Shown in pieces: positions 10,345-54,248 of a stretch of DNA of 64,000 bases. The position numbers and the translations under genes were made by a program. The number at the start of each line of letters is the position of its first letter. Position 1 is the first letter of the stretch. The notes beneath the pieces are model-generated. The model was not told the DNA's origin, ran no database searches, and saw only the letters and a list, made by a program, of their open reading frames with translations. Source of the stretch: Atherinomorus stipes (Eukaryota; Chordata; Actinopteri; Atheriniformes; Atherinidae). The DNA lies in contig JALJCO010009062.1 in the NCBI GenBank assembly GCA_023101725.1, positions 1 to 64,000 of the forward strand, given 5' to 3'.

Positions 10345-11010
10345 TGCAATTAAAAAAAAAAAAACTTTTTAACACCAGCCTGAGACAGAACAGAGTTCCT
10401 GTGCTGTGGAAAACATCCTGTCTTGTTCCTGTCCCTAAAAAACCACAACCAGCTGAACCAAATGACTACAGACCAGAACCAGAACCAGGACCAGAACCAG
10501 ATGACTACAGACCAGAACCAGAACCAGGACCAGAACCAATGACTACAGACCAGTTGCTCTGACATCTCACATCATGAAAGTCCTGGAGAGACTCTTACTG
10601 GCTCACCTCAACAAGCAAGTGAACACCTTTCAGGACCCATTACAGTTCACATATCGTAATGGGCTTGGGGTTGAAGACGCCATCATCTTCCTGCTTCAGA
10701 GAGCCCACTCTCATCTGGACCAGTCAGGCAGCACTTTGAGGGTCATGTTCTTTGACTTTTCAAGTGCATTTAATACTATTCAGCTGCTTTGCTATGTCAG
10801 AAGCTCCATAACTTCCAGGTGGATCCTCCACAACCACCTGGATTTACGACTACCTGACTAACAGACCACAGTTTGTGAGACTGAAAGGTTGTGTGTCTGA
10901 GATGGTGGTCAGCAGCACTGGAGCACCACAAGGAACTGTACTCTCACCATTCCTCTTTACACTGTACACCTCAGACTTCCAGTACAACTCTGATCCTGTC
11001 ATCTGCAGAA
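10345..11010 (+). pseudogene. Non-LTR reverse transcriptase, internal fragment (broken)
   Basis: The frame includes WKTSCLVPVPKKP, then TSHIMKVLERLLLAHL, FQDPLQFTYRNGLGVEDAI and VMFFDFSSAFNTI, which is RT motif A with its catalytic Asp. After a frameshift near 10800-10835 a second frame gives YLTNRPQFVRL and STGAPQGTVLSPFLF, which is motif B. Motif C (the Asp-Asp box) is missing because similarity stops near 11007. The fragment lacks both ends, so it has also lost the 3' tail. An internal duplication (10461-10550) expands the loop before TSHIMK. Clade is probably CR1/L2/Rex-like. Confidence 0.85.
10461..10552 (+). repeat. About 40-bp duplication inside the RT frame
   Basis: Two copies of a block starting atgactacagaccagaacca followed by gaaccaggaccagaacca. 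The duplication encodes repeated Asp-Tyr-Arg-Pro-Glu-Pro-Glu-Pro-Gly. Other fish LINEs have a single NDYRPVALTSH stretch at this point. The block itself contains six-base ccagaa sub-repeats. Confidence 0.85.
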
Positions 11011-19702: not shown

Positions 19703-20005
19703 TTAGGGTGCATTCAGAAAGCATAATCGGCGGGTCTCGGCCCGTTTGGGGACTAGGCTCGGCTGGGGGCGGGGGCGGTCTTCCAGACCGAGATCACGCT
19801 CACATTTCACCGTAGCCAAAACTTTAGAATAATGTTCCCGAGGACAAGACGAACAACGAACAAGAAGGTTCTCACAACTCCCGTTTCCTCCACAACACCA
19901 CATTGTTGTTGTGCAAACGTACGAGGAGCTGGATTTGCTTTCATCAGACCAAACATCGACTAAAGCTTTTACTTCCTCGTAACTCCACGTCTGACCACGA
20001 GCCAT
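19703..20005 (-). pseudogene. Harbinger SANT/Myb-like protein, N-terminal remnant
   Basis: From an ATG at 20005 (minus strand) the frame begins MARGQTWSYEEVKALVDVWS, the start of the SANT/trihelix-like DNA-binding domain that Harbinger elements encode beside their transposase. Tryptophans at residues 7 and 19 match the first-helix tryptophans of the family. After about residue 25 the similarity ends and the frame runs into non-homologous sequence, indicating an internal deletion. A related domain start occurs at 62793. Confidence 0.7.
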
Positions 20006-20784
20006 CTTTAGAAGTACTGCCGTCCCACACGTGTGTTTGTTGTTGTACACACTCAAACATAGAGGTACGAGACAGGAACATTTCTGTACCTGCAGGTAGA
20101 TTTTTTACAAATATTCTCTCAAAAGTACAATATTGGTCTTTATGAGGCCAGAAGTACCTATATACTATGAAAAAGGGTCCAAAGTAATATAAAGTACAAA
20201 TTTGTACCATTTCAATCCTAAGGGTACCTGCAGCATTGAAAACTGTGTGTAGCTTGTACAATAACTATAAATAGCAGTACTTCTAAGTAGTAGTATAATT
20301 ATAGTTATATTATGATTTTCATAATAACCATAGTAATCATAGTAATAATTATATGTATAATTATATATGTGTTTTGCCTAATATTTTATATAATAATTAT
20401 TCATTTATTATTAGCATCTTTGATTGTTGTCACAATCTCTATTTTATTGACTTTTATTCATCATCTTTAATTGGTTTAATTGTACTTTATTAACTCATAC
20501 AGCTTGATAAGGTACAAAAATGGACCAGGACCGAAGGAACAGAAATGTATAGTGTTTACCCACAATGCCATGCTAAACCAAATGCAGGAAGCAGCAATTC
20601 TGTAGTCCACTTCGTGTATTTGGTTCACTTGAATCGGACCGTGACCTGCGTTTGTAGGCGGACTCAGTCCGCTTGTCTGTTCCAGGATCAGGGTCCGTTT
20701 CTGCATTCACAACTCCCCCAAATAAAGCGGACTTTCCCTGCAAACAGACCCTGATTCAAACCAAACAGCTTTGTGAATGCGCCC
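19706..20784 (-). mobile_element. PIF/Harbinger-like element with nested MITE
   Basis: Ends GGGTGCATTCAGAAAGC and, inverted, GGGCGCATTCACAAAGC. Flanks TTA (19703-19705) and TGA (20785-20787) are close to the TWA duplication of Harbinger elements. Inside on the minus strand lies the start of a SANT/Myb-like accessory protein. A Tc1-type MITE (20049-20549) is inserted upstream of that frame. The transposase gene is absent. Confidence 0.75.
20049..20549. mobile_element. Tc1/mariner-type MITE, 3'-truncated copy
   Basis: Nearly identical over about 490 bp to 40600-41090. The left end CACACTCAAACATAGAGGTA follows TA. The copy stops at acagaaatgta, about 60 bp before where the right end should be. 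Nested in the Harbinger element. Confidence 0.85.
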
Positions 20785-26503: not shown

Positions 26504-27549
26504 AATGGAGGATTTTATTAGTAAGGGAGGAAAAAATCCAAACTTAAATAGCCCTGTGTGAAAAAGTGATCTTCCCCTAAACCTAATAACTGGTTGTTCC
26601 ACCTTAGCAGCAACAACTGCATCAAGCGTTTGTGATAACTGGCAGTGAGTCTTCTGCAGCGCTGTGGAGGAATTTTGTTCCACTCATCTTTGCAGAATTG
26701 TTGTAATTCAGCCACATTGGAGGCTTTTCCAGCATGAACCGCCTTTTTAAGGTCATGCCACAGCATCTCAATGGGATTCAGGTGGGGACTTTGACTAGGC
26801 CACTCCAAAGTCTTCATGTTGTTGTTCTTAAGCCATTCAGAGGTGGACTTGCTGGTGTGTTCTGGATCATTGTTCTGCTGCAGAACCCAAGTGTGCTTCA
26901 GCTTGAGGTCACCAACAGATGGCCGGACTTTCTCCTTCAGGATTTTTTGGTAGAAGCAGAATTCATGGTTCCATTTACCACAGCAAGTCTTCCAGGTCCT
27001 GAAGCAGCAAAACAGCCCCAGACCATCACACTAAAACCACCATATTTTACTGTTGCTATGATGTTCCTTTTCTGAAATGCCGTGTTACTTTTACGCCAGA
27101 TGTAATGGGACCTACACCTTCCAGAAAGTTCCACTTTTGTCTCATCAGTCCACAGAGTATTTTCCCAAAAGTCTTGGGGATCATCAAGATGCTTTCTGGC
27201 TAAACTGAGACGAGCCTTTATGTTCTTTCTGCTCAGCAGTGGTTTGATCTTGGAACTCTGCCATGCAGCCATTTTTGCCCCCCAGTCTCTTTCTGATGGT
27301 GGAGTCATGAACACTGACCTTCATTGAGGCAAGTGAGGCCTGCAATTCTGGGTCACGTTGGTCGGCCCCTCCTGGGAAGGTTCACCACTGTTCCATGTTT
27401 TCACCATTTGTGGATAATGGCTCCCACTGTGGTTCTCTGGAGTAAACCACAGTTAATTTATGTTTTAACAAGGGGGCAATCACTTTTTCACAAAGGGCCA
27501 TGAAGGTTTCCCCCCCCCCCCCCCCCCCTTGTTACTAAAAATCTTCATT
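26504..27549 (-). mobile_element. Tc1-like transposon, internally deleted
   Basis: Long terminal inverted repeats of about 75 bp: aatggaggattttattagta at the left against ctaaaaatcttcatt at the right, both continuing into tgtgaaaaagtgat / atcactttttcaca. TA dinucleotides at both outer edges (26502-26503, 27550-27551). At 1046 bp it is shorter than autonomous Tc1 elements (about 1.6 kb). The region coding for the N-terminal helix-turn-helix is missing between about 27330 and 27450. A poly-C run of about 18 lies at 27511-27528. Confidence 0.9.
26518..27314 (-). pseudogene. Tc1-family DDE transposase, broken
   Basis: The minus-strand frame from 27314 shows LARKHLDDPQDFWENTLWTD, with the first catalytic Asp in TDETKVE, then GGFSVMVWGCF and LAVVNGTMNS. 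A frameshift near 26940 moves the reading to the frame ending at 26518, with EWPSQSPHLNPIEMLWHDL carrying the catalytic Glu. The second catalytic position, normally the first Asp of QQDNDPKHT, reads QQNNDPEHT. The spacing from that residue to Glu is 34, so this is a DD34E protein with Asp changed to Asn. The N-terminal DNA-binding domain is deleted, so it cannot act as a transposase. Confidence 0.9.
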
Positions 27550-30744: not shown

Positions 30745-31900
30745 TAACATAGTGTACAGGTACAAATAATAAACAAAAGATGCATTTCAACTGGTAGAAC
30801 TAATTCATGCTGTATGAAAAAACCCATGAAATCAATAATTGATGCAGGACTTTAAATGCAGTCATTCAGATCATGTTTGAAATTATTATGATGAATTTGT
30901 CTGTTTATGTGATTAGAAAACCATATATCGGACGGTTGTGTAAAAGGCTGCTGTGCCTCAGAGGGAAAGCTCTTTCAATCTTTACTTGGGGCATAAAATC
31001 AGGAAGAAGCTCTGTCATCAATCTCATTTGTATTCTTTTATTGCAAATCTGTTTGGCCTTAACGTTGATGTGCAATGCTGTATGGTGTGCCACATGAATA
31101 AAAAACAAGATGACAAATGAGAAAAGGGGACAACAAAAAACTGCGAATCCAGGATGTGAAGAAATGTAAAGATTTGCAGGCCTCCCACACAGGGAATGAA
31201 AAATGATGAAGCAACACAATTTTGTGTTCAGGAAATGTATAAAAATGCTTATTAAAGTGGCTATTTTAGCTAACAAGAAAAATGATTTCTTGTCCTTGCA
31301 ATTTTCAGATGGTCAAAATTAGTTATTTCTTTACTGTTTTTGTGGAGTTCAAACTTTAAGCAATTCTAGTTTTAAAAGCTGCAGTCATGACCACTTTATC
31401 AGCCACTTAAATGTCTAATCAGCCAATCATATGGCAGCAACTCAACACATGTAGTCATGGAGACGTGATGAAGATGATAGAAAGGCAACAGGAAGTCAGA
31501 TCAGCACTGGTTCCAACAGAAGTATGCAGACTAACATCTCTGAACACAGAACACGTCCAACCTGGAAGCAGATGGACTCCAGCAGCAGAAACCAGAGCGG
31601 GTGCCCCTCCTGTCAGCTAAGAACAGGAAGCTGAGGTGGAACGGGGGGTACTATCCAGCTGCAGCCCCGAAGCAGAAGCCCCCGACGTGACAGGAGCCTC
31701 TGCTGTGACGGAAGCAGACCAAACAGCTGGTTCTTTCGCTGTTATATTATCGTCATACATGGGCTCGGAGGTCCTTTTGGGACTTTTTTACGTACAGTTC
31801 TTGCAATCTGGCAATCTGGATTTTCATGAGAAATTAGACTTAAATTTCCTGTTTGGTCAATCTCAACAAACAGCAGCGTCAAGCCCTAATGGTTGCACAG
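30745..31900. other. No recognised features
   Basis: Unique sequence. The 123-codon minus frame at 30905-31276 and the plus frame at 31636-31938 have no recognisable domain. Confidence 0.4.
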
Positions 31901-31904
31901 TTGT

Positions 31905-32400
31905 GACTTTGAAGGAACGTTCCGCGAATGTTACTTAAACGTCCCCTAAAGGTTGCATTATATAACTGTGGCAAGGTACGCAACTGAGGGCCCAGGCGGG
32001 CTTTGAACCCCAGACTCCCGGGTGAAAGTCATGCACGCTGACCAGTCAGCCAAAGGGACGTCCCTGTGGCCAAGTAGCCAGCGCACGATCAGTCGGAGGC
32101 ATAGTGACAGGACCGTCAACTGCCACATAACCTTTAGGGGACGTCCAGATAAAATTCTGCGACCGGTCCTTAAAAGTTGCTGGGAAGTTTGCAGTGCGAC
32201 CTTCAGCTAACGTTGCCGGAACGTTGCAGAAACGTTCACTGTGCGACCTTCACCGAACGTTGCCGTAACGTCAGCTGCAAACGGTCCCGCAACCTTTCGA
32301 AAACTTTCCATGACGACGCTGCCTGCTGTTGGTGGTGAATGTTCCTGCGACCTTCATGCAACGTTCGGGGAACGTTTGTGGAACGTTCCTCTGTTAGCTG
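31905..32400. repeat. AACGTT-rich imperfect repeat cluster
   Basis: Loose repetition of aacgttcc/ggaacgtt, gcgaccttc (32197, 32245, 32348) and cgttgcng words, as in a common teleost dispersed repeat. The cluster is interrupted by the 161-bp tRNA-like element at 31967-32127. The 16-bp word ACGTCCCCTAAAGGTT (31939-31954) and its exact reverse complement (32129-32144) flank that element. Confidence 0.65.
31967..32127 (-). mobile_element. tRNA-like element with TG...CA termini, copy 1
   Basis: 161 bp starting TGTGGCAAGG and ending CAACTGCCACA (7-bp terminal inversion TGTGGCA/TGCCACA), flanked by the 4-bp direct repeat TAAC (31963-31966, 32128-32131). On the minus strand it contains an A-box-like TGGCTGACTGG (32042-32052) and a B-box-like GGTTCAAAGCC (31999-32009), about 43 bp apart, in a tRNA-like context (gactggtcagcgtgcatgac, gcctgggccc). 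The T and acceptor stems pair imperfectly, so it is tRNA-derived and not a tRNA gene. Copy 2 is at 34598-34756. Confidence 0.75.
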
Positions 32401-34555
32401 GAATGTCTGGTGGGTAAATTTATTTACAGTTTTTCTCAATTGCTAAAACACTATTTTTGAAATGTCCCCTCACTGTTTCACAACTTTAAACACTGATCCC
32501 AAAACTCAAACTACTTTCCCTAAACCTCTGCTTTTTGCTGCAAAAGGAAGTTATCGACTCAAAACAGCATCACCTGGCCTTAAAAAGCGACACTATTGTC
32601 ACACAATACAGCAAAATGTAGAACACTACAGAGCAATCAGGAAACACTAACAGAGTTCTCAGAACATCATGCTGTCATCATGCTTTTTTTTTTTTTTTTT
32701 TTTTTTCATCAGGCCAAATCCATCATGTCACAACACAGAGAACTCACAACATGAAGTAGCAGAAAAGCACTCGGAGAGCGCAGAGCTCCGCCATTTCTCC
32801 GTTTCCAACATCTTTGCACTCACTGTCATTTGCACGATGATTCTTTGTAAATCACCTGCAAACCGTTGTTCAGCCCCTCACACAAAATTCTAGATTGAAC
32901 GGGCAAATTGCTGAACTCAAATTTGGATCTTTGTAGACCCGACCCTGAATGTACAACCAGATCTGCCCACTCAGGACTTGAGGAAATGACACACATTCAG
33001 TCATTTGCAGTCACACTCCTTGACACTCCTTAGGCTTGGAGGAGCCGTTCTCAGCGGGCTCCAACGTCGACTGACAGCCGATAATAAGTGAATAATGACT
33101 GTCAGAACACTCTTCCTTCCACATTAGGCCCTTATCACATTTTAATTAAATTTTGCATGCAGGTGGCACATTGAAGAAAACACCCCTGTGCATCTGATCC
33201 ACAGCCATGTGTTCACGGACCTTTGCATATAATGGTAGGACCCTCAGTGAAGGCGCCGGTGGGTTTCCACCTGCCAGAGGGGCCCTCAGAGGACACATTA
33301 TGCATGGCAGACAGCTGTCCTGTCTGGTGTTTGCAGCATGGGCTCGCTCATGCAGAAAGACACGATCGGACAGGACGAGCTCGGTAAAGGCTGGGCATGC
33401 TGATAGAGACAGCAAATACGAAATAAACACGGACTAATGGAAATGTGTTAATGTGCTACTGACAGGAAAATGTCCATCTATCATCTTTAACTCTAAACCG
33501 TGCAGCACAGAGGCCAGAAGCTTTGTTTAATGTAAATGTGCTATGCTGTGTTTGGCAGGTCAGTCTAATGAGAAGAAAGATGCTAAACCCTTTTATATTA
33601 GTCGGCTTTTTGTGAAGAATAAATATGATGTGGATTAGAGGGAAATGTGGGAACTATCAGGGCTGGCTGGACTCACTAATCCAGGCAGTCAACATTGTGC
33701 TGATCTGTAAACACAGATGCAGCAGGTCATTCAGTAATGACTGAAGCAAATTAATGTAAGGGTCATAAACAAGCAGATCTGCCGTTTATCAAGCGCTTGT
33801 GATTTAATAACAACAGGGTCTGGCCAGAGACGTGACTGCGACCCCGCTCGCCCATTTCAGCCTCGTTTCCTGGCTCTGGTCTGCAGACCGTTTATCTGGT
33901 GTCATCATTTAATAAACTCTCGGAGATGCGCTGTTAAACTTTAGTCTTCAGCTTAATGACAAAAACAACTTTAATTATCCCAGAGATAAATATCTAATAA
34001 TTACAAATTACAAATGATTTATAACAAACAAAATTAAAAACAAATTAAATGGCGCACCCCTCATTATTTGTCATGGTCAAGCCTCAAAACACCAGATTTA
34101 GGAGATTATCAAGTTATTGAGGCCTCATATGCAGTTATTTCAAAACATAGCAAACTTACCTGTTTCTGTTAAATCCTGTTGTTTAGTAGAAACAAAAGGC
34201 TCATAAATATATACAGCCTCTAAAAGCAAGACCGTACAACATGTGGAAATGTGTCGAATGTCCGGCAGGAACCAGACAAGAACACCTCGGCCGTTCCTCA
34301 ATCCGCATACTTTTTTTTTCCCTTCAAATTTTATTTACAAAAAGACAATACATAATAACAAACGTGCTCGAGGAGAGATGATCAAAATACAAGTATAAAA
34401 AGATAAAACAGATTTACAAATCATATTGCTCACATAAAGCTTTGAGTTTCATAGCTTTAGAGTTTGTGCAAAGTTTTAAAGAGTCCAGAAAACAACTTAA
34501 ATAAGCTTTGATACAGCAAGATTTGGTTTCTGTTTTGTAAACTTGCTATCAATCC
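32401..34555. other. Mostly featureless; one solo transposon end
   Basis: The segment ttacagtttttctcaattgc followed by taaaacactatttttgaaat at 32423-32462 matches, inverted, 46570-46636 (gcaattgaaaaaccctgtaa). It is likely one end of a TA-flanked DNA transposon family; no opposite end was found. A poly-T run lies at 32683-32706. The rest looks unique. Confidence 0.45.
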
Positions 34556-35686
34556 GCGTACTTGTGTACTTGCGTGCTTGTGTACTTGCGTACTTGGTGT
34601 GGCAGGACGAAGGAGGGCCCAGGCGGGAATTGAACCACAGACTCCCGGGTGAGAATCATGCGCGCTAACCAGTCAGCCAAAGGGACATCCTCTTGGCCAA
34701 GTAGCCAGGGAACATGAACACTCGGAGGCATAGTGACAGGACTGTCAACTGCCACATTGGGTACATGCGTACTTGCGTCCTTGTGTACTTGCGTACTTGT
34801 GGACTTGCGTACTTGGGTACATGTGTACTTGCGTGATTGTGTACTTGCGTCCTTGTGTACTTGCGTACTTGTGGACTTGCGTACTTGGGTACATGCGTAC
34901 TTGCGTGCTTGTGTACTTGCGTACTTGCGTACTTGTGGACTTGCGTACTTGTGGACTTGCGTACTTGGGTACATGCGTACTTGCGTGCTTGTGTACTTGC
35001 GTACTTGTGGACTTGCGTACTTGTGGACTTGCGTGCTTGTGTACTTGCATACTTGTGTGCTTGTGTACTTGCGTACTTGTGTACTTGCGTACTTGTGGAC
35101 TTGCGTACTTGGGTACATGCGTACTTGCGTGCTTGTGTACTTGCGTACTTGCGTACTTGCGTACTTGTGGACTTGCGTACTTGTGGACTTGCGTACTTGG
35201 GTACATGCGTACTTGCGTGCTTGTGTACTTGCGTACTTGCGTACTTGTGGACTTGCGTACTTGTGGACTTGCGTGCTTGTGTACTTGCGTACTTGCGTGC
35301 TTGTGTACTTGCGTGCTTGCGTGCTTGTGTACTTGCGTACTTGCGTGATTGTGTACTTGCGTTCTTGTGTACTTGCGTACTTGCGTACTTGCATGCTTGT
35401 GTACTTGCGTACTTGCATGCTTGTGTACTTGCGTACTAGAGTACGTCGTCTGTGCGTACGACTTGTGGACTTGCGTACTTGCATGCTTGTGTACTGGGGT
35501 ACATGCGTACTTGCGTGCTTGTGTACTTGCGTACTTGCGTACTTGTGGACTTGCGTACTTGTGGACTTGCGTGCTTGTGTACTTGCGTACTTGCGTGCTT
35601 GTGTACTTGCGTGCTTGCGTGATTGTGTACTTGCGTACTTGTGTACTTGCGTACTTGCGTACTTGCGTGCTTGTGGACTCGTGAAA
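34556..35686. repeat. 8-bp GTACTTGC minisatellite
   Basis: An array of about 1.1 kb built on GTACTTGC with variants GTACTTGT, GGACTTGC, GTACTTGG, GTACATGC and GTGCTTGT, organised in higher-order blocks of five to eight units. It is split by a 159-bp tRNA-like element at 34598-34756. A unit of 8 bp without stops leaves several frames open on both strands (up to 385 codons plus, 315 minus; Cys-Val-Leu-Ala-Tyr-Leu-Arg-Thr, or Ser-Thr-Gln-Val-Arg-Lys-Tyr-Thr). These frames are artefacts. Confidence 0.95.
34598..34756 (-). mobile_element. tRNA-like element with TG...CA termini, copy 2
   Basis: 159 bp, TGTGGCAGGACG to CAACTGCCACA, an 8-bp terminal inversion (TGTGGCAG/CTGCCACA). Flanked by TTGG on both sides (34594-34597, 34757-34760), inside the GTACTTGC array. 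On the minus strand: A-box-like TGGCTGACTGG (34669-34679) and B-box GGTTCAATTCC (34626-34636), one base from the GGTTCGANTCC consensus. Because flanks differ completely from copy 1, the shared segment fixes the boundaries exactly. It could be a solo LTR of a very short LTR element, or a MITE or SINE hybrid. Confidence 0.8.
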
Positions 35687-36715
35687 CATCATCCGCAGTC
35701 CGGTTATGTTCTGTTAAAAAGTTCGCTTCTCAGCAAGTACGCTGGAAATCCCCGCATGAGAACTTCCTCTGCAACATTGTACCGAGCAGCATCAGAGGAG
35801 GCTCGTGCGTACTCGGCCAGATATAAATCCCAGCATGCACCTGCACACGCGCAGCGTTTGGGAGCCTCCTCCTCACTCCTCCGCCTCTAACAGCCAAACC
35901 TGAGCATCATTTCTGTTCGCTATTGTCGTTCTTGGCCTTTTGTCTGCAGCTCTTCCTCCTGTTTTCCTCTCACAGCTGTTTTTGATAACATGATTATGAT
36001 TAACTCACCTGATTGCCCATTTGGATTAATATGCTTCTGTACTGGAAGCAAATATAACTTACATGAAACAAAAACATCCACTCAGTATGATTGTTTTGCA
36101 GCAGTTATTTTGATTGTTTTTATTTGTTTCAGTACAATTAAAAGCTGCACTAAAGTCTACAAAAAGAACTCTGGTGTACGCTTGAGCAGGCGAAAACTGT
36201 TTTGAGACCATGTCAAGCAGTTAGCGCAGCATTGCCAGCACCTCTTTCCCTCTTCCAGTAGTTTCATGCACACTGTCGGCGACGCTGATTATATTTTTGT
36301 AAATTTTGTTCTTTACTTGTTTCCATGATTGTCTTGTGCTGCTGGGGTTGCATCTGAAAATAATGTGGTTATGAGGTCACAAATGCAGAAAACATGAACT
36401 TATGAAGCCACGCCCACCCATGCCATCATGGTGAAGAGTTACACGTGCAGACATGAGCCTGGAAACATCTATATGGACAGTGTGAGAAGGAAATCCACTG
36501 AGGAAGCTGTAATGATGAAGTGACACTAGTGTTCAGTGTCCGATATTGTTCCATGATTGGACAATCGCACGGACCTGCGCATCAACAGTCGGCCATTTTC
36601 TGCCAGCATTCCTTCCTGCTGTTGCCGCGGCGACTGTGTTGCCTCTGGTCTGGATGATGTTCCTGAATCCTTCATATTCCTCACGTATCATCGTCTGCTT
36701 CTCCATGGTGAAATA
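35687..36715. other. No recognised features
   Basis: Unique sequence after the minisatellite; no domain, RNA gene or terminal repeat seen. Confidence 0.4.
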
Positions 36716-37640
36716 CAGGGGTTCGACAATGAAACTGAAACACCTGCCATTTTAGTGTGGGAGGTTTCATGGCTGAATTGGACCAGCCTGGTGGCAAATC
36801 TTCATTTATCTTTAGCAGAATTAAATGTGCACCTCAGCTCTCCTGTTTCCACCAGAACTGTCCATCGGGAGCTCCACAGGGTAAATATACACGGCCGGGC
36901 TGCTATAGCCAAACCTTTGGTCACTCGTGCCAATGCCAAATGTTGGTTTCAATGGTGCAAGGAGCACAAATCTTGGGCTGTGGACAATGTGAAACATGTA
37001 TTGTTCTCTGATGAGTCCACCTTTACTGTTTTCCCCACATCTGGGAGAGTTTTCGGTGTAGAGAAGCCCCAAAGAACTGTACCACCCAGATTGTTGCATG
37101 GCCAGAGTGAAGCATGGGGGTGGATCAGTGATGGTTTGGGCGGCCATATCATGGCACTCACTTGGCCCAATACTTGTGCTAGATGGGCGTGTCACTGCCA
37201 AAGACTACTGAACCATTCTGGAGGACCATGTGCATCCAATGGTTCAAACATTGTATCCTGAAGGCGGTGCAGTGTATCAGGATGACAATGCAAAAATACA
37301 CACAGCAAGACTGATGAAAGATTGGTTTGATGAACATGAAAGTGAAGTTGAACATCTCCCATGGCCTGCAAAGTCACCAGATCTGAATATTATTGAGCCA
37401 CTTTGGGGAGTTTTGGAGGAGCGAGTCAAGAAACGTTTTCCTCCACCAGCATCACGTAGTGACCTGGCCACTATTCTGCAGAAGTATGGCTTAAAATCCC
37501 TCTGACCACTGTTCAGGACTTGTATGTGTCATTTCCAAGACGAATTGTCGCTGTATTGGCTGCAGAAGGAGACCCCACACCATACTAATAAATAATTATG
37601 GTCTAAAACCAAGTGTTTCAGTTTCATTGTCTAACCCCTG
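36716..37640 (+). mobile_element. Tc1/mariner element, DD36E type, deleted
   Basis: Terminal inverted repeats of about 32 bp: CAGGGGTTCGACAATGAAAC at the left against CAGGGGTTAGACAATGAAAC (inverted right end), with TA on both outer edges (36714-36715, 37641-37642). 925 bp, against about 1.2-1.6 kb for intact relatives; the 5' part coding for the first helix-turn-helix is missing. A hAT element is inserted directly at its right border. Confidence 0.9.
36770..37505 (+). pseudogene. Tc1/mariner transposase with DD36E spacing, broken
   Basis: The first frame shows the second DNA-binding helix region VSTRTVHRELHRVNIHGRAA, ANAKCWFQWCKEHKSWAVD and HVLFSDESTFTVFP (first catalytic Asp). The protein then needs a frame change near 37100 and passes an in-frame TGA near 37206. 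The frame beginning near 37230 supplies GGAVYQDDNAKIHTA (second Asp) and SPDLNIIEPLWG (Glu). Counting from the second Asp of QDDN to Glu gives 36 intervening residues. DD36E is the spacing reported for the Incomer group of vertebrate Tc1/mariner elements; assignment to it is inferred. Inactive: N-terminus lost, frameshift and stop. Confidence 0.88.
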
Positions 37641-38652: not shown

Positions 38653-38826
38653 TGTGTTGTGGAGTCAACTAGTCTTTTCCATGTCATGTATTTGTTCTGC
38701 CCAGCGACTAAACCAGGTGAGTCCAATCAGCCCTGTTTAATTCATTGTGCTGATTGGACTCACCTGGTTCAGTGACTGGACAGAACAAATTCATGACATG
38801 GAAAGACTTGTTGACCCCACAATTCC
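38653..38826. repeat. 78-bp-arm hairpin (near palindrome)
   Basis: The arm from gagtcaactagtcttttcca through ccaggtgagtccaatcagc (38653-38731) pairs with gctgattggactcacctggt through tggaaagacttgttgac (38749-38826). The loop is about 17 nt. Mismatches are few, and the inner 20 bp around accaggtgagtccaatcagc is perfect. No terminal duplication identified. Confidence 0.85.
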
Positions 38827-40597
38827 CACCTCTGGTATCACACACAAACTGTGTGACGATGAGCAATTTCAAGCTTTTGCTTTGGCCCGCTTGTGTCCCA
38901 GAATTAAACCCTAATATCTGCGGGATTTTCTGAGCAGAGACAATGTCAGCTGCAGACAGCTGGATGGGGTAGCGACTGTTCAAACCCAGATCAGACAGTA
39001 CTGCCGCTCCATGAGGAGGCTTAATGTGGCTGTTATTGGTGCCAGTAACGGACATGCTTTTTCCTATCAACAGGATGCTTTGTTTCTTCTTCATTTGTTT
39101 TCATATGAGCGCTGTGATTAGTTTCTTCATGTCCCACAGCTTGATGAGAGGATGAGAATCCTACTTACTTTCTCCTGCAGCTGTTTTACTACCATGCCAT
39201 AAACCTGTCAGATTTTTGTTTGAAGTTTGTTTTTGCCAGAATGAATTTGCCAACTTCAAAACAAAGTTTGCTGCCAAAAAACCCAAAATGTGCAGCTTTT
39301 CAAAACTAAGCTTAAAAATATAAGTACAAATTTAAGCGTGCAAGAGTACAGTTATAGATAATAAAGCATTTAATCCAGTGAGCTGATGGGAGTTATGCAG
39401 TCTGCACAGATTGTCCCCTGGAGACAACAGCAACTCACAATTGCATTCAAAGAATATGCAAGTTCTTGTCATGAGAGCAATCCCTAGCCTGATGTACATG
39501 TATTTTCTATCACAGGAATGGACGAAGTGTGTCCTCGAGGACCGCTGTACTGCTGATTTTGGATGTTTCCTGTGGCAGATCAGATTCAGATTAATGGCTC
39601 AACATGCTTGGGCTGAACTTGACAACAGGCTCTTAAGGAAACCCATTCAATTTGAATCAGATGTCTCAGAGCAGAGAAACATCTAAAACCTGCAGGACCT
39701 CCAGGACTTTGATAGAAGCGACAGGTTGCGTTGCTGAACTGTAAACACATGACTTTGCTCTGCAAGTGTAGCTCACAAAGCAAAGCTACACTTACAAAGC
39801 TGCCTCTGCAAAAGGATGGTACAGCTGTTCAGAGGTGCTAATCATTCAATCGCTCGACAAACTGATTGCTGCTACGTCAATCATCAAGCCTCCTCGCTCG
39901 CAAACTCTCAACTCCAAACAATGAAAAACCACCACATAGTCATTATAAACACAATCACATCACATTTAGAGTTAAAACATGTTGTAGTGTTCTCTTTCTC
40001 ACAGAGCGGACGGGCCGCTTCACCTACGGATGGCCATTGCTACAACAAAAAATAGAGCGACAGAAAGCTACAAATGCTACAGTATATTTAAACAGCCCCG
40101 TATAAAAACAATGTCAGAAAGCAGGTGGGCTAAGGGCGCCTAAATAGCTAACCGCAGCCACTAGTGGTGTAGTCACGACCACACTACCACGACCAGGGGC
40201 GGAGACTAAGATATTTTACAAGACTGGGACTGTGTTGGGCCTAGTTCACATGGAGCTGAAGCCGGTTCAGGTGTGAAACCGATCCGGGGGAAAGGTTTCA
40301 CCATCCCCATGAAACCGCTGTAGTACGTCCTACAAGGCTGTGGGTGGCGCTATGATGATTAAAGTGTGACACTCCAAACCTAGAACAAGACAGCGCAAAT
40401 AAAGACTCACCACGTCGCTGGAAATCAACAAAGGAAGAGCAGAAAGGCAGAGATGGCCGAGGATTTACGAGGCGAACGCGAACGTTTTCTACATGCTCGA
40501 AAACAGTCGCTCACCGACGCCATTGTTGTCGTGAATTTTTTTTCAATGAAATTTATTGTTGTGAATGACACCAACACGTGTTGTCTCACTGACATCA
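38827..40597. other. No recognised gene
   Basis: Short frames only. The 128-codon minus frame at 38708-39094 overlaps the hairpin and has no recognisable domain. The sequence at 40230-40600 has some transposon-like character but no paired ends. Confidence 0.4.
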
Positions 40598-40599
40598 TA

Positions 40600-41155
40600 C
40601 ACACTCAAAAATAGAGGTACGAGACAGGAACATTTCTGTACCTGTAGGTAGATTTTTTTTACAAATGTTCTCTCAAAAGTACAATATTGGTCTTTATGAG
40701 ACCAGAAGTACCTATATACTATGAAAAAAGGGTCCAAAGTAATAGAAAGTACACATTTGTACCATTTCAACCCTAAGGGTACCTGCAGCATTGAAAAATG
40801 TGTGTAGCTTGTACAATAACTATAAATAGCAGTACTTCTAAACAGTAGTATAATTATAGTTATTATATTATGATTTTCATAATAATCATAGTAATAATTA
40901 TACAATATTATATTATATATTATATAATAATTATTCATTTATTATTAGCATCTTTGATTGTTGTCATAATCTCTATTTTATTGACTTTTATTCCTCATCT
41001 TTAATTGGTTTAATTGTACTTTATTAACTCATACAGCTTGATAAGGTACAAAAATGGACCATGAAGGTACAGAAATGTCTTTCAGAAAGGAACCCCCCCA
41101 GCAACAAACTTTGTCCCCTTTTAAGTAGAAATTGGTACCTCTATTTTTGAGTGTG
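40600..41155. mobile_element. Tc1/mariner-type MITE, complete copy
   Basis: Termini CACACTCAAAAATAGAGGTA and, inverted, the same sequence (ccaatttctact follows inward on the right), with TA at each edge (40598-40599, 41156-41157). 556 bp, no coding capacity. A truncated, highly similar copy lies at 20049-20549. Confidence 0.92.
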
Positions 41156-51613: not shown

Positions 51614-51711
51614 ATCGGCGCACACGTTCCTGTTCTGGAGGCGTGGTTTCAGGTGGGTGTATTTTTTTAAATGTCGTTTGCTCAAACCGTTTTTCCAGGA
51701 TCCTCAACTGT

Positions 51712-52415
51712 CTCAGTCCTGATAGGACAGAGGTTTAGGGGTCTCCCAGCCCTGATAGGACAGAGGGGTAGGGGTCTCCCAGCCCTGATAGGACAGAGGG
51801 GTAGGGGTGTCTCAGTCCTGATAGGACAGAGGGGTAGGGGTCTCCCAGTCCTGATAGGACAGAGGAGTAGGGGTGTCTCAGTCCTGATAGGACAGAGGGG
51901 TAGGGGTCTCCCAGCCCTGATAGGACAGAGGAGTAGGGGTCTCCCAGCCCTGATAGGACAGAGGAGTAGGGGTCTCCCAGTCCTGATAGGACAGAGGAGT
52001 AGGGGTCTCCCAGTCCTGATAGGACAGAGGGGTAGGGGTCTCCCAGCCCTGATAGGACAGGGGAGTAGGGATGTCTCAGTCCTGATAGGACAGAGGGGTA
52101 GGGGTGTCCCAGCCCTGATAGGACAGAGGGGTAGGGGTGTCTTAGCCCTGATAGGACAGAGGGGTAGGGGTCTCCCAGCCCTGATAGGACAGAGGAGTAG
52201 GGGTCTCCCAGCCCTGATAGGACAGAGGAGTAGGGGTCTCCCAGTCCTGATAGGACAGAGGGGTAGGGGTCTCCCAGCCCTGATAGGACAGAGAGGTAGG
52301 GATGTCTCCATCCTGTTAGGACAGAGGAGTAGGGGTCTCCCAGCCCTGATAGGACAGAGGAGTATGGGTCTCCCAGTCCTGATAGGACAGAGGGGTAGGG
52401 GTGTCTCCGTCCTCT
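51712..52415. repeat. 33-bp minisatellite (about 21 units)
   Basis: Unit gtctcccagccctgatagga followed by cagaggggtaggg. 33 bp is 11 codons without a stop on either strand, giving a 288-codon plus frame (Leu-Ile-Gly-Gln-Arg-Gly-Arg-Gly) and a 261-codon minus frame. Neither is a gene: no composition or homology beyond the repeat. Confidence 0.95.
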
Positions 52416-54248
52416 TTCTCCCTGTCATTTTGGTATACCACATGATTGGATTTCTGCATGTTGACATCTGCAGAAAATCTTCTGTTCTGCATCTCGTGCT
52501 TCTCGTTCAGGAAGTTTCAGTTAAGACGTTACAGTAAGTCAGCAACGATGTTGCACCTACAGGACTAATCAGTGACTTTCTATCCTCAGCTGCCTTTGGA
52601 GCTCTTGTTCTGCCGTATTCACGCTCCTTTGTGTGACTGAATGGTAAAAGTAGTTCATGTTGTATCCTATAACCATGTTTTACCCTGTTTGACACAAAGC
52701 CAGCATCCGTTCCTGTAATCAGACATTATTACGCTTAGTAAAGTGCACCTTTATTTACTTATTCATTTTTTTCAGCATGCCCACATCCCACTCTTTTGTA
52801 ATGGAACATGCTTATTGTTCTGAGAGTGCACCCCCTACATGTGCATTAATATCAAGTGAACCAGCCAGCTGTTACCGGTCATATATTATAAGGCCATGAC
52901 ATCCTGATGGAACATAAAAATTCCACGACTCTTTTGTTTTGACAGATGGCAGCTTTGTTTGCTGGCAAAAACAATATATTTTGTTGTTGTTTTCCAGGCT
53001 TGTCATAATGGTTGACTGTTCAAATGAATATGTATCGCATGGAGCCGGAGGAATATAGCACAGCCCCACCCTAGGGGACAGCGTTAGTGTCTGGCTCAGT
53101 TGTGGGATGGCAGCAGAAGGATGAGAAGCAGACCAGGGTCTGTATTGTGTAGAAATTAATCGCATTACAAGAAACAAAAACATGACTTGCTCAAGCTGCT
53201 GTTGATGTCACTGACTGTAACAGTCACAATCATTCATGGTTGTTCTTTAGCTAGGGCTTGTTTCGTTCTCATCTAATACAATTATTTTATTCTACCTGAA
53301 CTCGCATCAAGTGCTCTTCTCATCATTAGTGACCCTTAAAATGCTGCAGACTATTTAAAATGAACACTTCAGTAGCGAATGAGACTAAAATGTCCTGATA
53401 TAATTGAAGCTGTACAGTTCTCAGTGACATGAGCTGTACATATTTCACATGGAAGCAAGTTCAGTTGTTGCATTTTTAAGTACATGATGAAATGAATATG
53501 GCGTAATGCCGATTCACCCACAAAGGTCGCTTTATTCATGCTGTTCTGAATATACTTGTGTTGCCGAGTGTGGGTGTGATGTTGAGTATTTACCCACCAG
53601 GCAGGGATGGACCATTGAAATTTAAAATTGCAATAGAAAAAAATCGGTAAATCTCAGACACTGCATTCATTTTGACCATTTTTATTTATGCTTTCTTGGG
53701 ATGTTGGGATAATGAAGGTGTGATCTTCTTACACATTCAGAGACACTGTCGTGAAATGGTGGTACAAATGTAACAGCTGCCATGTATGTGGACCCACTGT
53801 GGGTAGATATAAACTGCTCATTCTAAGATAATAAAAACATAACAGAGTACGTGATCTTACCTTTTGTGAATCGGGTATCAAGGTGGGATCCAGTTTCACA
53901 CCTAAATATGCAATGCTGGATCATTCATTTGGTGCTGGAAAAGTCAAAGAAGGAGGACAGCTGGAGCCACTGGCTTTTAAAACATGACCTCGGTTTTTTT
54001 TGTATTAAAAATGAGGAAATTTAGTGTCATACATCCCCTGATATCACTGAGACAATGAAGGAGTGGCTGAACAGGACCACTATTCTTTAAAGGAAAACGG
54101 ACTTGACAGACATTGGCATATACAGTAAGTAAAAGGGCATGCTATGTTTTCTTATAAAATATATATATGTAGCAGCAAATATAGACAGAATAGAAGAGGA
54201 CCAAGAATGGAGCCCTGGGGCATGCAGTAAAATCAGCATGTATGTTAT
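52416..54248. other. No recognised gene
   Basis: AT-rich. attaatcgcattacaagaaa at 53156-53175 and agaggaccaagaatggagcc at 54195-54214 resemble fragments of fish dispersed repeats. No structure can be delimited. Confidence 0.4.

Follow-up and report, generated by a model that had tools for sequence, protein, structure and literature searches.

Two copies of a unit about 160 bp long lie in the 64-kb window (the whole stretch of DNA analyzed here), and each is very probably a solo LTR left by a TRIM of the Helenus type. Such elements are miniature LTR retrotransposons without coding sequence whose LTR holds a tRNA-derived internal Pol III promoter. Observed directly are the two copies, their sharp edges, their ends, their 4-bp duplications, an empty site, paired A and B boxes, and a partial likeness to tRNA. 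Helenus (TRIMp3) denotes TRIMs whose LTRs resemble tRNA and which occur in fungi, animals, and plants (Kojima 2024, PMC10886601). A first-pass annotation of the sequence had offered two readings, solo LTRs of a tRNA-based analogue of Cassandra or a MITE that had captured a tRNA; the former is the better supported of the two and corresponds to the published class Helenus. The novelty that the annotation implied falls away because Kojima already reports such elements in fish (PMC10886601).

Copy 1 (31967..32127, minus strand) is a solo-LTR-like unit of 161 bp and copy 2 (34598..34756, minus strand) one of 159 bp, both with TGTGGCA...TGCCACA ends and both with the tRNA-like strand on the minus strand. 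In a global alignment with 6 gap columns, 138 of 157 aligned bases are identical, and the 19 that differ divide into 10 transitions and 9 transversions. Agreement is 8 to 10 of 10 bases in the four ungapped 10-bp bins examined inside the ends and falls to 1 to 3 of 10 in eight ungapped 10-bp bins outside them; similarity thus ends at the called edges, and the two sharply bounded copies of 159 to 161 bp stand as first annotated. TG...CA, a general feature of LTR ends, is present in both copies. The earlier description of LTR-like ends therefore holds for TGTGGCA...TGCCACA, with the correction that the inverted ends span just 7 to 8 bp.

A blastn search with both units as queries found no third copy in the 64-kb window; after the two units themselves, the strongest hits came from a palindrome inside the units and from matches of 11 to 17 bp at chance level. 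Between 25000 and 45000, the repeat finder listed no other unit pair like copies 1 and 2, and no two-LTR pair adjoins either copy. Relatives were also sought in larger collections. Three patterns matched 0 stretches in the viral contig collection; one 19-bp pattern matched 3 bacterial or archaeal stretches in the genome contig collection, with about 3.7 expected by chance at equal base frequencies.

The window holds several other repeats and remnants of mobile elements. Tc1-like transposase remnants lie at 26518-27320 (minus strand) and 36557-37261 (plus strand), with matches to DDE_3 and HTH_Tnp_Tc3_2 (one match below the Pfam cut-off), and a reverse transcriptase remnant (RVT_1, 3e-10) lies at 10505-10861 (plus strand). 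These remnants are in keeping with fish DNA, although they are no proof of it. A 34-bp tandem array of 26.8 copies occupies the window edge (1-931). A second array, with 20.9 copies of 33 bp (51714-52402), is spanned by 288 codons open from stop to stop (51671-52537, plus strand) with IGQRGRGLP-like repeats. An inverted repeat of 127 bp, 93% complementary with a spacing of 259 bp, is found at 25190-25316/25576-25702 and is a possible MITE; another, at 38676-38804, has 56-bp arms that are 91% complementary and 17 bp apart. A KIYLQVQKCSCLVPL stretch is common, by eye, to two open frames (19703-20104 and 40543-40938, both minus strand), which therefore represent one repeat family present twice.

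At the called ends of the two units, the longest flank duplication is 4 bp in both copies: TAAC at copy 1 (31963..31966 on the left, 32128..32131 on the right) and TTGG at copy 2 (34594..34597 on the left, 34757..34760 on the right). Copy 2 interrupts a tandem array of TTGCGTACTTGTGTAC-like units (34556..35679), which supplies an empty-site control. When the copy 2 flanks are joined and one TTGG is taken out, the 24-mer across the junction recurs without mismatch at four further positions within the interrupted array (34877, 34957, 35101, and 35189). Along all of its 76 bp, the joined site shows a match of up to 96% to the array. The insertion at copy 2 is exactly the 159-bp unit plus the 4-bp duplication. 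Joining the flanks of copy 1 restores an imperfect palindrome of 41 bp that is 87.8% self-complementary.

Duplication length by itself is weak evidence. When the ends were slid freely by up to 30 bp, a 4-bp flank repeat was present in 19 of 3721 start/end pairs for copy 1 and in 55 of 3721 for copy 2, which lies within the tandem array. What makes the duplications convincing is that they coincide exactly with the edges common to the two copies, together with the evidence of the empty sites. Copy 1 would also allow a 5-bp duplication, ATAAC, if the final A of the unit is included; copy 2 excludes this length. The 4-bp flanking repeats of the first-pass annotation, TAAC and TTGG, are accordingly borne out in two of two copies, with the empty site of copy 2 present in the array. 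The surroundings of copy 1 (31900-32420) are rich in AACGTTCC and GAACGTT and contain several imperfect inverted repeats. Copy 1 occupies the loop of the palindrome GTCCCCTAAAGGTT...AACCTTTAGGGGAC, which is perhaps a fold-back element that was the insertion target.

On the minus strand of both copies, an A-box-like motif, TGGCTGACTGG (32042..32052 in copy 1; 34669..34679 in copy 2), is followed by a B-box-like motif containing GGTTCAA, namely GGTTCAAAGCC in copy 1 (31999..32009) and GGTTCAATTCC in copy 2 (34626..34636). The start-to-start spacing is 43 bp in each, in agreement with the spacing of about 43 bp originally annotated. On both strands of the 64 kb, the pair occurs at 2 places, copy 1 and copy 2. 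In 100 first-order Markov windows it was matched 2 times with a strict pattern and 6 times with a loose one, and in shuffled units it appeared in 8 and 9 of 20000.

About 55 bp of each unit resembles part of a tRNA, from D arm to T arm, on the minus strand. The comparison was made by local alignment with nine human tRNAs. Asp-GTC was the best of the nine in both copies, with scores of 40 and 42, and the best-of-nine score was equalled by 4 of 3000 dinucleotide shuffles for copy 1 and 1 of 3000 for copy 2; the opposite strand reached best scores of just 24 and 20. Under stricter scoring (300 shuffles per tRNA), all shuffles were exceeded by Asp in copy 1 and by Gly and Asp in copy 2, while the other 15 of 18 tRNA comparisons did not beat every shuffle. 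Human tRNA-Val-CAC was at background in both comparisons, with 12 and 13 under the stricter scoring (null means 14) and 20 and 22 in the 3000-shuffle comparison.

An intact tRNA gene was rejected as an explanation: ARAGORN found 0 tRNA genes in the window, Rfam gave no tRNA match at its gathering score and none at E values up to 10 in 31900-34800, and no cloverleaf was recognised. Because the alignment likeness exceeds shuffles and neither ARAGORN nor Rfam reports a tRNA, the stretch looks tRNA-derived, yet would not make a tRNA. The tRNA-like context first annotated is thus upheld by alignment, but as a partial likeness that neither program recognises as a tRNA.

Neither unit contains TATAAA or AATAAA on the minus strand, which is what a promoter of a type other than Pol II would predict, and for this reason the most probable promoter, putatively for Pol III, consists of the A and B boxes. 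TTTT, the Pol III terminator, is likewise absent from both units on the strand that would be transcribed (minus). Its absence argues against a scheme simply carried over from Cassandra, and termination would have to take place elsewhere or at a weaker signal. Even a transcript that extends beyond the 3' LTR might support strand transfer, since it would include the repeated part.

In both units, the predicted folding is stronger than that of most dinucleotide shuffles (z of -3.36 for copy 1 and -2.32 for copy 2; in each case, 1 of 200 shuffles did equally well). In the fold predicted for both copies, the A-box region pairs with the sequence just upstream to form a long hairpin. Between the two copies, 0 of 50 consensus pairs changed on both sides; with covariation absent, the A-box hairpin was set aside as a curiosity.

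Taken together, the TG...CA ends, the 4-bp duplications, and the lack of a tail point to insertion by the integrase of an LTR retrotransposon. On the minus strand, the unit ends in TGTGG, which agrees with TGTNR, the pattern given for Gypsy LTR retrotransposons (PMC2836005), and resembles the CsRN1 motif TGTGGYG (PMC3601003). In the cycle proposed for a Helenus-type element, Pol III would initiate in the 5' LTR (the window's minus strand), a few bases ahead of the A box, and the transcript would pass through a short interior and on into the 3' LTR. An autonomous element, probably Gypsy-type, would supply the reverse transcriptase that copies the RNA and the integrase that inserts the DNA; the cut made at insertion, staggered by 4 bp, would give the TG...CA ends and the 4-bp duplication. 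Later LTR-LTR recombination would drop the interior and leave the solo LTRs now seen. Pol III activity, the two-LTR parent, the Gypsy partner, and the recombination are all parts of this cycle that we infer. Several points stand against the Helenus reading: the copies examined (n = 2, both single units) show neither a two-LTR arrangement nor a primer-binding site or polypurine tract, both lack TTTT on the minus strand, human tRNA-Val-CAC scores at background, and Rfam gives no tRNA match.

Among the alternatives, the units are unlikely to be MITEs, that is, short DNA transposons that captured part of a tRNA and were mobilised by a Ginger-like transposase, which generates duplications of 4 bp at elements with TGTNR ends. 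The 4-bp duplications together with TGTGG...CCACA fit the TGTNR pattern of Ginger (PMC2836005), and copies 1 and 2 are both single units, as such an origin would allow. However, Ginger1 is described with inverted repeats of 40 to 270 bp and duplications of CCGG or CCGT/ACGG, and Ginger2 with inverted repeats of 50 to 180 bp and a target preference of RTATAY (PMC2836005), whereas the inverted ends here extend for 7 to 8 bp rather than forming long inverted repeats. Moreover, the two sites carry duplications of TAAC and TTGG, and their six-base surroundings, ATAACC and CTTGGG (by eye), do not fit RTATAY. The long inverted repeats and other targets of Ginger weaken the captured-tRNA MITE that the first-pass annotation had put forward beside the solo LTR.

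It is very unlikely that the 160-bp unit is itself what moves. In that case it would be a minimal, LTR-like substrate for an integrase, transcribed by Pol III and inserted singly with duplications of 4 bp, and the genome would contain no parent with two LTRs. An element of this kind would be a retroviral-type-integrase MITE or SINE hybrid, and the idea is kept because both copies are single and no two-LTR copy was found.

There is an even slimmer chance that the units are terminal pieces of a larger element, or LTRs from a conventional protein-coding LTR retrotransposon that resemble tRNA by chance. Partial tRNA likeness occurs in many LTRs ("not a few" hold stretches like part of a tRNA; PMC10886601), and an LTR of a longer coding element is possible. 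Against a piece of something larger, the two copies lose their similarity at the same edges on both sides, and the empty site identifies the unit as the complete insertion; against chance, the box pair and the tRNA likeness exceed shuffles. A tRNA-derived SINE inserted by LINE machinery is the least likely reading, although a length of about 160 bp and A and B boxes within a partly tRNA-like stretch would suit one. Such SINEs have a tRNA head at the 5' end, an A-rich or simple-repeat tail, and variable, longer duplications, whereas here the boxes begin about 75 bp from the unit's end and not near the 5' end, the ends are inverted TG...CA, a tail of either type is found at neither edge, and the duplications are exactly 4 bp in two of two copies.

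Solo LTRs of a Helenus-type TRIM are thus the preferred reading, and the window provides an independent, sequence-only sighting of them with a clean empty site. It contributes no new principle. Helenus-type elements confuse the annotation of SINEs, tRNA genes, and LTRs, and they raise the question, also in fish, of whether Pol III truly transcribes an LTR retrotransposon (PMC10886601). For later work on Helenus or TRIMp3, PMC10886601 was the only relevant paper among the matches listed; no tRNA-like LTR is described in the available sections of PMC3532108.

Compared with known systems, the units share with the plant TRIM Cassandra, whose LTR is 5S rRNA-derived, and with the nemertean element Ajax, also 5S, a small-RNA Pol III promoter within the LTR of a miniature LTR element (PMC10886601). 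Both of those carry 5S rRNA, whereas the units here are tRNA-like; Ajax has 5-bp duplications and these units 4-bp ones, and the Pol III terminators conserved in the Cassandra LTR have no TTTT counterpart here (PMC10886601). A Cassandra-type, 5S rRNA-derived LTR was ranked lower, with no Rfam match in the units. Ginger1 and Ginger2 are alike in TGTNR ends and 4-bp duplications but differ in their long inverted repeats and other targets (PMC2836005). The tRNA-derived SINEs are alike in carrying A and B boxes in a tRNA-like stretch but differ in head-tail order, tail, and duplication type.

Helenus elements consist of two LTRs with a short interior, the full element measuring 311 to 1263 bp, and recombination between the LTRs leaves single units with intact duplications; solo LTRs are stated for fungal families (PMC10886601). 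The two-LTR form, primer-binding site, and polypurine tract were not seen for the two single units here, which have no interior; a further difference is the best-scoring tRNA, which is Asp-GTC here versus the human tRNA-Val-CAC aligned with fish Helenus according to a figure legend (PMC10886601). Animal Helenus elements have 4-bp duplications, as do two of two units here, and primer-binding regions common to Gypsy elements (PMC10886601). Box A (TRGCY/YGG) and box B (GGTTC) are kept in Helenus (PMC10886601), and a tRNA-derived stretch with both boxes lies in the LTR of both units. Every Helenus feature tested, by comparison with the published description, is present in the units. The fish hosts of Helenus include zebrafish, carp, goldfish, catfish, milkfish, sterlet, paddlefish, and coelacanth (PMC10886601). 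The units resemble these elements further in that no functional tRNA is recognised and in their fish host, above all families such as LTR-11_DR, which is represented in zebrafish by 5575 LTRs and 2618 interiors (PMC10886601).
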